A stretch of DNA of 64,000 bases from NCBI GenBank assembly GCA_900168235.1, contig FUZG01000013.1, positions 1-64,000 of the forward strand, given 5' to 3'. This document shows positions 43,270 through 46,917 of the stretch, piece by piece. This DNA is from Lachnospiraceae bacterium. Its GTDB lineage: Bacteria > Bacillota > Clostridia > Lachnospirales > Lachnospiraceae. The notes beneath the pieces are model-generated. The model did not search any database, was not told where the DNA came from, and saw only the letters and a program-made list of their open reading frames with translations. A program made the translations under genes and the position numbers. How positions within the stretch are numbered: position 1 is the stretch's first letter; each line of letters begins with the position of its first letter.

Positions 43270-44127
43270 TTAAACAGGCATTAAGTGTTTATATTTGAAC
43301 CACAAAGTAAGCACCAGGTAAATTACGGGCTGATGCAGCAGATATATCCCGAGGGAATGGCGTCCGAGCCACTCTAAAGGCGGGAGCCATCCGCGGGTCA
43401 GGCTGTTCAGCAGCCGGTTATGCTTTTTATGAATCATGTGATACAGGAAATATCCTGTTAAAAATAAGAAAAACCACGGCAGGAGCGGGAAGTAATCAGT
43501 GGAGTAAAAATCCTTTACAGGAAAACCGACCCATGTGGTGAACCAGTTTTTATAAAGGCTCGCAGGCAGTGTCCTGGTTATGGGCCCTGCCTGAGGCGCG
43601 ATCTTTAATCCTGTAAATCCTATGTATCCGTACTGCGCGTGTCTGGTCACGATAAAAAGCAGGAATGATGCGATCATGGACTCCAACGCCGGGAGATGGC
43701 GGAAAAGCGGATCCAGTACCGTCATCAGTATCATACAGCTTCCGATGAGAGTCAGGACTCCGAAATAGACCACATCATCCGGCATAAATACCACCGTCAC
43801 TATGGTAACGATGAGTCCTGCTATAAAGACCGTGGCACCTCTGCTGAAATGGTGCTTTCCAAGAGACCACACAAAGCCCGATAATAGGATAAAGCACCAG
43901 CATATACTCTGCTGCCAGATATATCCCTGAATCTGCGTGTACCACGGATGGGACTGCCCAAAAATAAAAATCATATCCCACATGGCATGGTACAGGATCA
44001 TACTGGTAAGCGTAAGTCCGCGGAGACCGTCAAGCTTTCTGTAGCGGAACTTTCCGCCGCTGCTCTTCCACCGCGTCGCTGTATAGCCTTTTCCGACAGT
44101 ATGACTCTGATCATTCTGTGATTTCAA
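43270..44127 (-). CDS. DUF1624 / heparan-alpha-glucosaminide N-acetyltransferase-like membrane protein
   Basis: The 285-residue protein has about eight transmembrane helices. Its first helix carries KLDGLRGLTLTSMILYHAMWD with the histidine typical of this acyltransferase-like family, followed by LLSGFVWSLGK. Family members are thought to move acyl groups to sugars across the membrane; no substrate is evident. It is 28 bp downstream of the fused GTPase gene, on the same strand. Confidence 0.82.
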   Translation of the reverse strand: MKSQNDQSHTVGKGYTATRWKSSGGKFRYRKLDGLRGLTLTSMILYHAMWDMIFIFGQSHPWYTQIQGYIWQQSICWCFILLSGFVWSLGKHHFSRGATVFIAGLIVTIVTVVFMPDDVVYFGVLTLIGSCMILMTVLDPLFRHLPALESMIASFLLFIVTRHAQYGYIGFTGLKIAPQAGPITRTLPASLYKNWFTTWVGFPVKDFYSTDYFPLLPWFFLFLTGYFLYHMIHKKHNRLLNSLTRGWLPPLEWLGRHSLGIYLLHQPVIYLVLTLWFKYKHLMPV

Positions 44128-44155: not shown

Positions 44156-46873
44156 TCAGTTTATAAGTTCCGAGATCTCTGCTTCGGTGTTTTTTATCTT
44201 TTCAAGGAAGTTCATTGCGCTGAGTCTGTAAGCTCCTGCACCGAAAATGATAACCTGCTCTACGTTATCGCTTGTCGCTACGGTTACGGAGTATTTTTTA
44301 CTGAGCTCATGAGCTGCTTTTTCTATATAAAGATCCGCAGTTTCGGCTTCACGGGTAAATACCACATCGATATTGTGGTAGCGCATGATACGCTCCTGAC
44401 CGCCGTTTACCTTGTAGGCATCATAAACCAGGATCACATTTTCTTTCTCATAACCTGCGTAGTTTGACAGGATATCCATAAGCCTGTCACGTGCCGCCTT
44501 GATATCGCGGGACGCAAGGGATTTGAGCTCCGGCCACGCAAATATCATGTTATAGCCGTCAACGAGGAGATATTCTTTTTTCGGTTCCGCCTTTTTCTTT
44601 GCCGCGCCGTACTTCGGATCACCGCCTGCGGGTCCCTTTGGAGCAGACTTCTCAAGGGCTTCATTTACGAGCGGGTAATCATCCTCGTTGTAATTTACGC
44701 GCTTTTTTATCGGTCCATAGGTCCGTTCAAAAATTTCCTGAAGCTCCTTATCGAAAGCTATTCGGTCGCGCTCTTTTTCCTTAAAAGTCCTGTTATCCGG
44801 CTTGTCACCGGAAAGCCTTGCCCTGTGCGCTTCTGCTCTGTCATAGAATGACTCATCACCTGCGGCAAAGCTGTTTTCTATCTTATCTGATACCTCTTCT
44901 TCGCCGTTTGACGGACGCCAGCCGGTATCGATGTGCATATAGCTCCGAACCTTGTCCCACGGGATGATAGTACCTGCGCCGTGAGTGCAGAATACTGATG
45001 CCGCAGGATTACGCATATCAAGATCTGCTATATATCCGCGTTTCTCAATGACTTCCTGCGCATTGTGGCACGGTTCATAGCCCTTTAAGCGGACGGACAA
45101 ACGCCCTTCGCCTGCTGTATAGGTTGCGACTGTCCTTGCATAATCCTTTAATTCAGAAGCAGGGACCGTACCTGTGAGTATTGACCGCGCTCCGTCAGCT
45201 GACATTTCAGGCGCACCTGTTGAGCCGTGCATGTCAGCGATATCAGTCATTGCGCGTCCTACATTTCCGGAAGGAACTTCTAATGTAAAGGACAGAACAG
45301 GCTCCAGAAGTACGCTTTCTGCCATCATTAGACCCTGACGCACGGCGCGGTAAGTCGCCTGTCTGAAATCTCCGCCCTCGGTGTGCTTCTCATGGGAGCG
45401 TCCTGCGATAAGCGTGATCTTTATATCTGTTATTTCCGAACCTGTGAGCACTCCGCGATGAGGCTTTTCCTCAAGATTTGTGAGGATGAGTCTCTGGAAA
45501 TTAGGTGTGAGATAATCTCTCGGACACTTATTTTCAAATACGACTCCTGTTCCGGGTTCGCCCGGTGTCAGCATGAGATGGACTTCTGCATAGTGACGGA
45601 GAGGTTCGAAGTGACCAACTCCCTCTACTTCATTGAGTATTGTTTCTTTATAAACTATCTCAGGCGTGCCGAAGTCTATGGGATATCCGAAGCGATCCAT
45701 GGTGAGACGGCGAAGTATCTCGGTCTGCACTTCACCCATGATCTCAGCGGTGATCTCCCTGGTTTCTTCATTATATGAGAGATGGAGCATGGGCTCTTCT
45801 TCCTCGAGCTGGCGAAGATCCGCAAATGATTTTACAGGGTCCGCTCCCTCAGGCAGGATAATTCGACAGCTCTCTATAGGCTGGAGTATCTCACTGGTGT
45901 CATCTTCCTCTGTTCCGAGTCCCGAACCGATCTTTGTGGTGGTGAGACCTGCGACGGCACATATCATTCCTGCATCAGCCTGCTGGATGAGGTCTGACTT
46001 TGCGCCTGATGATAGACGTATCTGATTTACCTTTTCATCATTTATGAGATCACGTATCTTTAGTGAACCGCCTGTGATCTTCATCCAGGAAAGTCTGGTA
46101 TTTCCGTCACGAGATATTTTATAGACTCTTGCGCCAAATTCTGACGGATAATCAGGGACGGTGGAAAGGGTATCAAGCGCAGATAACAGCGGTTTTATAC
46201 CCTCCATACGAAGCGCGGAACCAAAGAACACAGGGAAAAGCTTCTGCTCTTTTATGAGCTTTGGAAGTGCATCCTGAGATACGGGCGTTCCTTCAAGGTA
46301 GCTTGTCATAAGCTCCTCATCGAGAACCGCGATTTCTTCCTGTATTTCTTCATTATTAAAGTCAACGGGAAGAGGCATTTCGCCCTGATCAGAAACAAAT
46401 TCAAAGCATCCGCCCGAAAGCTCTGTTCTAAGTGTTTCCAAAATGGATGCAGAGTCCATTCCGGGCTGATCCATCTTATTTACAAATATAAATGCAGGAA
46501 CATGATAATGACGGAGAAGCTGCCAGAGTGTACGGACCTGACCTGTTACGCGGTCGGGAGCACTTATTACCAGCACCGCACAGTCAAGGACTCTGAGCGT
46601 CCTCTCCATTTCAGGCGAGAAATCGGCATGTCCCGGGGTATCAAGCAGTGATACGGAACGGTAATCTGTTTCAAAACGGGCTTCTTTTGAAAAAATCGTG
46701 ATGCCGCGCTCTTTTTCCAGATCAAATGTATCGAGATGTGCATCGCCGTGGTCTACTCTTCCGGCCTTCCTTATGGCACCTGTTTCAAAAAGAAGCGCTT
46801 CGGAAAGCGTGGTTTTTCCCGCATCCACGTGGGCAAGGATACCCAGCACCATATTTTTCCTGCTCTGATCCAT
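44156..46873 (-). CDS. EF-G/TetM-like translational GTPase fused to a Rae1 (YacP, NYN) RNase domain
   Basis: The 905-residue protein joins two ribosome-linked modules. Residues 1 to about 650 follow ribosomal-protection proteins such as TetM: AHVDAGKTT (G1), RGITIFSKEA (G2), DTPGHADF (G3), NKMDQPGMD (G4), then domains II-V with LGEVQTEIL-like and GSTGAPEMSADG segments. A charged helical linker (about 660-760) follows. Residues 766-905 match Bacillus Rae1/YacP: LLVDGYNMIFAWP, VILVYDAYKVNGG, TREAETADLYIEKAA, VATSDNVEQVIIFGAGA, with the four acidic residues of the NYN nuclease in place. Rae1 cuts mRNA in the ribosomal A site, and TetM-type GTPases bind the same site. Ribosome rescue or mRNA cleavage is inferred; tetracycline resistance should not be assumed. 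Confidence 0.9.
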   Translation of the reverse strand: MDQSRKNMVLGILAHVDAGKTTLSEALLFETGAIRKAGRVDHGDAHLDTFDLEKERGITIFSKEARFETDYRSVSLLDTPGHADFSPEMERTLRVLDCAVLVISAPDRVTGQVRTLWQLLRHYHVPAFIFVNKMDQPGMDSASILETLRTELSGGCFEFVSDQGEMPLPVDFNNEEIQEEIAVLDEELMTSYLEGTPVSQDALPKLIKEQKLFPVFFGSALRMEGIKPLLSALDTLSTVPDYPSEFGARVYKISRDGNTRLSWMKITGGSLKIRDLINDEKVNQIRLSSGAKSDLIQQADAGMICAVAGLTTTKIGSGLGTEEDDTSEILQPIESCRIILPEGADPVKSFADLRQLEEEEPMLHLSYNEETREITAEIMGEVQTEILRRLTMDRFGYPIDFGTPEIVYKETILNEVEGVGHFEPLRHYAEVHLMLTPGEPGTGVVFENKCPRDYLTPNFQRLILTNLEEKPHRGVLTGSEITDIKITLIAGRSHEKHTEGGDFRQATYRAVRQGLMMAESVLLEPVLSFTLEVPSGNVGRAMTDIADMHGSTGAPEMSADGARSILTGTVPASELKDYARTVATYTAGEGRLSVRLKGYEPCHNAQEVIEKRGYIADLDMRNPAASVFCTHGAGTIIPWDKVRSYMHIDTGWRPSNGEEEVSDKIENSFAAGDESFYDRAEAHRARLSGDKPDNRTFKEKERDRIAFDKELQEIFERTYGPIKKRVNYNEDDYPLVNEALEKSAPKGPAGGDPKYGAAKKKAEPKKEYLLVDGYNMIFAWPELKSLASRDIKAARDRLMDILSNYAGYEKENVILVYDAYKVNGGQERIMRYHNIDVVFTREAETADLYIEKAAHELSKKYSVTVATSDNVEQVIIFGAGAYRLSAMNFLEKIKNTEAEISELIN

Positions 46874-46917
46874 CTATAACTTCCTCGCTGATTCATTCCT
46901 TATAATGTCACGATGTC

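Follow-up and report, generated by a model that had tools for sequence, protein, structure and literature searches.

A Rae1 nuclease fused to a translational GTPase is the usual form of Rae1 in Lachnospiraceae and replaces the free enzyme

What does a translational GTPase do with a messenger RNA (mRNA) nuclease built into its own chain? The question is raised by a gene at 44156..46873 on the minus strand of a 64,000-nucleotide stretch of Lachnospiraceae bacterium DNA (contig FUZG01000013.1, positions 1 to 64,000, assembly GCA_900168235.1), which was analysed as a whole and is called the window here. An initial annotation had read the gene as a translational GTPase fused to Rae1, and Pfam matches to both halves together with an alignment to the Bacillus subtilis structure 5mq8 confirm this. 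New here are that the fusion is the usual form of Rae1 in Lachnospiraceae, that it has one origin, that it replaces free Rae1, and that its GTPase is not a tetracycline-protection protein. On balance we think it probable, with no great confidence, that the fusion serves this lineage as its Rae1 and that the attached translational GTPase carries the nuclease to paused ribosomes, and the interpretation given in the initial annotation is partly supported.

The gene encodes 905 amino acids from an ATG start with no internal stop (open reading frame list and Pfam), and a ribosome-binding site, GAGGAAG, was read from the sequence 6 nucleotides 5' of the ATG (46880..46886, on the minus strand like all parts of the gene below). 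The product is a complete five-domain EF-G/TetM-type translational GTPase followed by an extension, a linker, and a complete Rae1/YacP domain. In the G domain (residues 8-235; 46169..46852; Pfam GTP_EFTU, E 1.6e-51) the motifs AHVDAGKT, DTPGH (with H82), and NKMD align, and domain II (residues ~245-325; 45899..46141) is placed by a sub-cutoff Pfam EF-G_D2 match, by strands in the predicted model, and by the range of the EF-G/TetM fold alignments. Domains III (residues 332-396; 45686..45880; Pfam EFG_III), IV (residues 404-518; 45320..45664; Pfam EFG_IV), and V (residues 521-600; 45074..45313; Pfam EFG_C, match 521-605) follow, and the EF-G/TetM counterpart of domain IV is the arm that reaches the decoding site. 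G-domain motifs and five-domain architecture both agree with membership in the EF2-type translational GTPase superfamily, and fold alignments of the predicted model to EF-G span residues ~1 to 618. The Rae1/YacP NYN nuclease domain occupies residues 767-902 (44168..44575), where the Pfam NYN_YacP match (769-902) scores 163.9 bits against a gathering score of 24.6 (E 4.3e-48) and B. subtilis YacP (PDB 5mq8/5mq9) aligns end to end (E 1.1e-28); structure comparison of the model reached residue 657 at most, and the identity of the NYN part comes from these sequence matches.

How common is this arrangement? A family sample of 250 genomes, drawn from 249 genera of the same GTDB family (Lachnospiraceae) and including the window's own genome, contained NYN_YacP in 220. 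Frame lengths were listed for 186 of the other 219 genomes, and 166 of these frames were at least 800 amino acids long, i.e., fusions; 14 were of 174-260 amino acids (13 stand-alone genes and the split fusion of G042), and six were incomplete or unclear. Rae1 in this family usually takes the fused form. Double NYN matches in four genomes (G039, G076, G130, and G173) look like single genes cut by contig ends or frame breaks, and two equally scoring matches on two contigs of G154 probably reflect a duplicate assembly. In G042 (L103:2014-4699) the fusion stands in two overlapping frames of 711 and 190 amino acids, which may be a natural split or a sequencing error. In a class sample of 291 genomes the GTPase subfamily was found in 122, and all 97 of those with a frame of at least 800 amino acids also had an NYN match; named relatives extend the fusion to Oscillospiraceae and to gut Clostridia related to them (e.g., Intestinimonas, Flavonifractor, and Oscillibacter). 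A phylum-wide search with a profile of the GTPase only, with no NYN search, matched 20 of 299 genomes, including 18 frames of at least 857 amino acids, some of them from families outside the class. The fusion is not an assembly accident, because long frames with NYN_YacP occur in most Lachnospiraceae genomes with a listed frame and in other families.

By the trees, the fusion arose once. A quick maximum-likelihood tree of 84 GTPases puts the 54 fused ones in one group (support 99, a single change) and all 25 unfused ones outside it. In a similarly quick tree of NYN domains (46 fused and 38 free, 84 in total), the fused NYNs and the free NYNs of Lachnospiraceae share one clade (support 99), and the fused/free label needs two changes, with the split gene of G042 as one free row within the fused part; the fused NYN thereby appears to descend from the free Rae1 of the same lineage. 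Two further families, f24 and f25, have free NYNs that branch apart from this clade, while their fused genes fall within the Lachnospiraceae type, a pattern suggestive of transfer.

Is free Rae1 retained beside the fusion? The initial annotation had named a separate rae1/yacP as something to look for and, if it had the same role, as a point against its reading, and a search of the window's own genome (99.93% complete) returned no second NYN_YacP match. In the 97 class genomes where the GTPase lies in a long frame, NYN matched once per genome above cut-off, apart from G380 with two matches, both in long frames; the frames carrying the matches, listed for 87 of the 97 (10 unlisted), all reach at least 843 amino acids, and stand-alone Rae1 was seen in none of the 97, with the NYN frame listed for those 87. 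Among the 169 class genomes without the GTPase, 75 have an NYN match, for which 46 frames were listed: 45 are stand-alone (168-216 amino acids) and the last, in G427 (L165), is the end piece of a fusion that its contig interrupts. These 45 proven stand-alone frames are a lower bound, as 29 of the 75 NYN frames were unlisted; one of the 75 matches falls below cut-off (188 of 189 class matches exceed it), and G305, G394, and G519, with weak GTPase matches only, are counted among the 169. The resulting contrast, 0/97 vs 45/169, gives a Fisher p of 2e-10 with relatedness ignored. Apparent second NYN copies in G383, G448, and G488 were dropped as 21-bit fragments below cut-off.

Gene order tells the same story from the other side. 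Free yacP lies in the order mrnC-rlmB-yacP-sigH or part of it (e.g., L095, L099, L101, L142, and L291), names that we assigned by eye after the B. subtilis order. In 11 of the 16 fusion genomes read (L272-L278 and L282-L285), rlmB adjoins sigH with no yacP between them; the window's own genome (G000, L278) is one of these, with rlmB followed by sigH, the yacP slot empty, and the usual context of a stand-alone gene missing. Two genera hold both states: in g280, G307 has free yacP in the rlmB-sigH slot and no GTPase match, while G274, G383, G448, and G488 are fused, the slot being empty in G383 and G448; in g275, G505 (88% complete) is free and G269 and G302 are fused. The fusion replaces free Rae1, and this replacement supports the view that it does Rae1's job.

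The same gene order lends itself to another reading, in which the protein is an rRNA/tRNA processing or ribosome-disassembly nuclease whose GTPase carries the NYN domain to ribosomal RNA (rRNA) or transfer RNA (tRNA), not to mRNA: free rae1 adjoins rlmB and mrnC, both of which we take to be rRNA genes. NYN domains have indeed been proposed for rRNA/tRNA maturation, according to work cited in the accessible text of PMC4342817, but B. subtilis Rae1 is reported, in what is accessible of PMC6613710, to be an endoribonuclease that cuts mRNA in the ribosomal A site, and the domain is absent from 30 of the 250 family genomes; we regard this reading as very improbable.

What kind of GTPase carries Rae1? 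The initial annotation called it TetM-type, which holds for its architecture and fails for its family, since its scores fall far short of the Tet cut-offs and its domain IV tip is different. Among NCBIfam models tet_protect matches best, yet the fusion stays under both curated Tet cut-offs (NF012153, 406.1 bits vs 775; NF033148, 281.4 vs 1100), whereas a genuine Tet(M/W/O)-type protein of the same family (L088) passes both, with 820 on tet_protect and 1283 on tet_protect_M_W. In the tip loop of domain IV (residues 491-504; 45362..45403; G-x-x-H-x-KHTEGGDFR in the alignment) the window has RSHEKHTEGGDFR where Tet rows have YYSPVSTPADFR, and the Tet-type YYSPVST loop is not present. KHTEGGDFR is exact in 21 of 25 fused and all eight unfused rows of the tip alignment, the four deviating fused rows reading KHTVGGDFR, KHTGGGDFR, KHTEGGDFG, and KHTDSRDFY, and H494, K496, H497, T498, G500, G501, D502, F503, and R504 are invariant across 67 aligned fusions. 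The neighbouring domain IV loop, G-GHxEPLRHYAE (residues 418-430; 45584..45622), is near-invariant in its GHxEPLRHYAE part and unlike EF-G or Tet rows, and a C-terminal extension (residues 606-648; 44930..45058; CHN..EVI..SVFC.HGAG...PW..V..YMH in the alignment; ordered in the model), with its HGAG motif, is common to fused and unfused members and absent from aligned Tet and EF-G rows. The protein is no EF-G either: it scores 283.5 on the EF-G model TIGR00484 against a cut-off of 659.4, is 27% identical to the genome's own EF-G and 24% to its EF-G-like protein, and does not have the domain IV loops GGRGQ and SYHxVDSSE seen in that EF-G. Judged from its sequence, the GTPase half is TetM-type in architecture only and has conserved loops of its own.

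These data bear on whether the fusion serves antibiotic resistance, as Atkinson 2015 suggested (PMC4342817, in its accessible text), by Tet-like ribosome protection with the RNase acting on rRNA or on drug-blocked complexes. That suggestion in print is joined by tet_protect being the top NCBIfam model and by the NCBI label of an unfused relative as a Tet protein. It has to contend with 406 bits against a cut-off of 775 where the family's genuine Tet protein reaches 820 and 1283, with the replaced Tet tip loop, and with the presence of the gene in most sampled genera of the family. Among the 40 records listed of 1086 matching plasmid records, moreover, full-length annotated tet genes are 27-32% identical to the fusion and two incomplete stretches of tet(M) 37% and 44%, while the closest two (50.3% and 44.8%) are members of the fusion's own GTPase subfamily. 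Membership among the tetracycline-protection proteins was rejected, as curated score and tip loop both fail, and a resistance role appears improbable. Antibiotic-stalled ribosomes, one of the states that the initial annotation thought the protein might recognise, are not specially indicated, given the sub-cutoff Tet scores and the different tip.

Two further GTPases came to light in these comparisons. On the Ligilactobacillus salivarius plasmid NZ_CP101686.1 (L293:3007-4926), i.e., in Lactobacillales, a 639-amino-acid unfused subfamily member is annotated as TetM/TetW/TetO/TetS resistance yet carries the subfamily loops GHFEPLRHYSE and HTVGGDFR, and its Tet annotation is likely a false resistance call. 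A third Tet-like type (L086:1486-3411 in G068; 641 amino acids; 453 bits on tet_protect, under cut-off) has the tip HHLEHTHPLDF and belongs neither to Tet nor to the fusion's subfamily.

Are both halves still working parts? The initial annotation had described the GTPase motifs and four acidic NYN residues as intact, and loss of nuclease residues in close relatives was one of the outcomes that it named as telling against it. In alignment A3, which comprises the window and 66 named loci (80 loci fetched, 77 with a complete frame, 66 of these used), none was lost: the nuclease residues D772, N775, D818, E844, D847, E851, and D869, including the four acids D772, D818, D847, and D869, are invariant in all 67 fusions, as are D17, K20, T21, T59, D78, H82, N132, K133, and D135 of the GTPase, and the acidic active-site residues of the NYN domain align with those of 5mq8. 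Mean column identity is 0.83 in domain IV, the most conserved domain, 0.74 in NYN, and 0.65 in the G domain. In a comparison with L172 (Lachnospiraceae bacterium NK4A144), the nearest relative at 86% identity, the proportion of amino-acid-changing differences (pN) is lowest in the nuclease (0.047), with 0.086 in the GTPase and 0.173 in the linker; a dN/dS ratio of nonsynonymous to synonymous change was not calculable because synonymous sites are saturated (proportion of synonymous differences, pS, 0.75-0.83). Both halves look intact and conserved in relatives, and hence look active. An inactive NYN domain serving as an RNA-binding module only, for which we found no supporting point, sits badly with D772, D818, E844, D847, and D869 being invariant and with the nuclease showing the smallest share of amino-acid-changing differences, and its probability seems to us next to negligible.

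If both halves are active, do they act together? The main rival to a Rae1 delivered by its GTPase is a simple tether with two independent activities, in which the GTPase has its own EF-G-like task (translocation help, recycling, or unblocking), Rae1 works independently as it does in Bacillus, fusion provides proximity and co-expression, and cleavage is not GTP-controlled. The linker (residues 649-766; 44576..44929) would suit such a tether, being long (70-169 amino acids across the 67 fusions), mostly disordered (predicted local distance difference test, pLDDT, <50 at 657-685, 687-692, and 725-762), and variable; it nonetheless contains a short helix (residues 697-719; 44717..44785; predicted structure) whose loosely defined motif, ELxxIFxRTYG, is found by loose matching in 64 of the 67 fusions. 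In B. subtilis, Rae1 exists as a protein of its own (5mq8; PMC6613710, as far as its text is accessible), and among the 16 full-length unfused GTPases of the class sample, six occur in genomes without any NYN_YacP (G277, G282, G310, G326, G430, and G453), which argues that the GTPase has a role of its own without Rae1. Against independence, the fusion has been kept since its single origin and has displaced a free, operon-borne rae1, beyond what convenience needs. In the family sample, moreover, a subfamily GTPase, unfused or split, occurs in 10 of the 14 genomes whose NYN frame is short and in none of the 30 that have no NYN (p 4e-7), a test on 60 chosen genomes at E 1e-70 that missed the diverged GTPase half of the G178 fusion, so that absences are not absolute; one of the ten co-occurrences, G042, is a split fusion and no separate pair, and the single match among the 30 NYN-less genomes, G213, is a genuine Tet. 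We judge the tether unlikely, though deserving of serious weight.

Several further observations, like the variable linker sequence and length and the six GTPases without NYN_YacP, weigh against a delivered Rae1. The class sample shows no significant association between unfused GTPase and Rae1 (10/16 unfused GTPases in NYN_YacP genomes vs 75/169; p 0.2), and a general co-dependence of the two was rejected despite the family sample. The yacP slot was not judgeable in five of the 16 fusion genomes read (L279, L280, L281, L286, and L287), where sigH was not seen beside rlmB, and lineage history could also account for the exclusion of free Rae1, though both states occur within two genera. The 30 family genomes without NYN_YacP mean that the gene is dispensable, and G079, of the same genus and 99% complete, matches neither half. 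No conserved operon partner emerged, the commonest neighbour cluster being found at seven of 79 loci and the next at six.

In the window, a hydrophobic-looking 285-amino-acid open reading frame (43270-44127) lies 28 base pairs downstream of the fusion and on its strand; three of 79 relative loci have a similar gene, so it is no general partner. A defence-system reading was dropped, as no PADLOC model matched at E 0.001. One class genome, G368, has two unfused copies of the GTPase subfamily (L261 and L262) plus free Rae1.

How, then, would a GTPase-delivered Rae1 work? By analogy with EF-G/TetM and B. subtilis Rae1, the fusion would bind ribosomes, be gated by GTP, and cleave in the A site. The GTP-bound factor would first bind paused or stalled 70S ribosomes as EF-G or TetM does, with domain IV in the A site and the tip loops GHxEPLRHYAE and HxKHTEGGDFR reading or rearranging the decoding site rather than ejecting tetracycline. 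The ribosome would then trigger GTP hydrolysis via H82 and domain IV would leave, whereupon the NYN domain, on its flexible leash of 70-169 amino acids, could move into the freed A site, or into the A site of a neighbouring ribosome, and cut the mRNA, with transfer-messenger RNA (tmRNA) clearing the resulting non-stop complex. Such a hand-over is likelier than simultaneous action, because domain IV and Rae1, which a docking model places in the A site, would compete for one A site. Both tmRNA and MutS2 are encoded in the window's own genome, which would allow the usual rescue of cleaved complexes. Loss of Rae1 is reported to suppress the lack of EF-P, i.e., an efp mutant (PMC6613710 and PMC12320835, in their accessible text).

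The fullest version of this proposal is tentative, and we would sooner expect parts of it to need revision than the whole to hold: a single-chain, GTP-gated A-site nuclease, which would be the bacterial, one-polypeptide equivalent of an mRNA surveillance pair made up of a GTPase and a nuclease. In it, a new translational GTPase subfamily, with conserved tip loops and a C-terminal extension of its own, would probe the A site when ribosomes stall or collide, and GTP hydrolysis would pass that site on to the tethered Rae1, which would then cut the mRNA; the protein would serve as the default Rae1 in a large part of gut Clostridia, having displaced the free enzyme partly by gene transfer. If true, an abundant group of gut bacteria handles stalled ribosomes with a GTPase that carries its own mRNA nuclease; the system would show the GTP timing of A-site cleavage and open Rae1 targeting, which is poorly understood, to testing, and it would correct the tetracycline-resistance label of these proteins, which can affect resistome counts.

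The fusion itself is already in print, while no functional description of it was seen among the listed results of a literature search; the initial annotation likewise knew of none. Atkinson 2015 (PMC4342817) reports, in its accessible text, that Tet proteins of "ten species of clostridiales" carry an added YacP-like NYN RNase domain, for which RNase-based antibiotic resistance was proposed; this is the same fusion, there classed as Tet, and relative to that text the present analysis adds a separate tip signature, a single origin, a family-wide and wider spread, and the replacement of free Rae1. The literature search, to which subscription papers (including relevant ones on Rae1) were largely closed, showed among its listed results neither a functional study of the fusion nor a statement that it replaces free Rae1. 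B. subtilis Rae1/YacP (5mq8/5mq9) resembles the fusion over the whole NYN domain and in the same acids, but stands alone as a protein (PDB chain of 181 residues) whose gene is co-transcribed with yacO/rlmB (PMC6613710, accessible text), whereas in the fusion Rae1 forms the C-terminal domain of a GTPase, and the genome has no yacP in the operon slot. Tet(M), Tet(O), and Tet(W) differ from the fusion in curated scores, which it does not reach, in their domain IV loops, and in lacking the added NYN domain, and EF-G differs in tip motifs at 27%/24% identity. The unfused subfamily relatives (~640-724 amino acids, no functional name) share its tip loops and C-terminal extension, but have neither linker nor NYN. 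To our knowledge, no other bacterial EF-G-like GTPase is joined to an A-site nuclease in one chain. The MutS2/SmrB nucleases and eukaryotic Hbs1/Ski7 likewise couple a ribosome-binding NTPase to mRNA decay, as proposed for the fusion, and differ from it in nuclease folds and partners.

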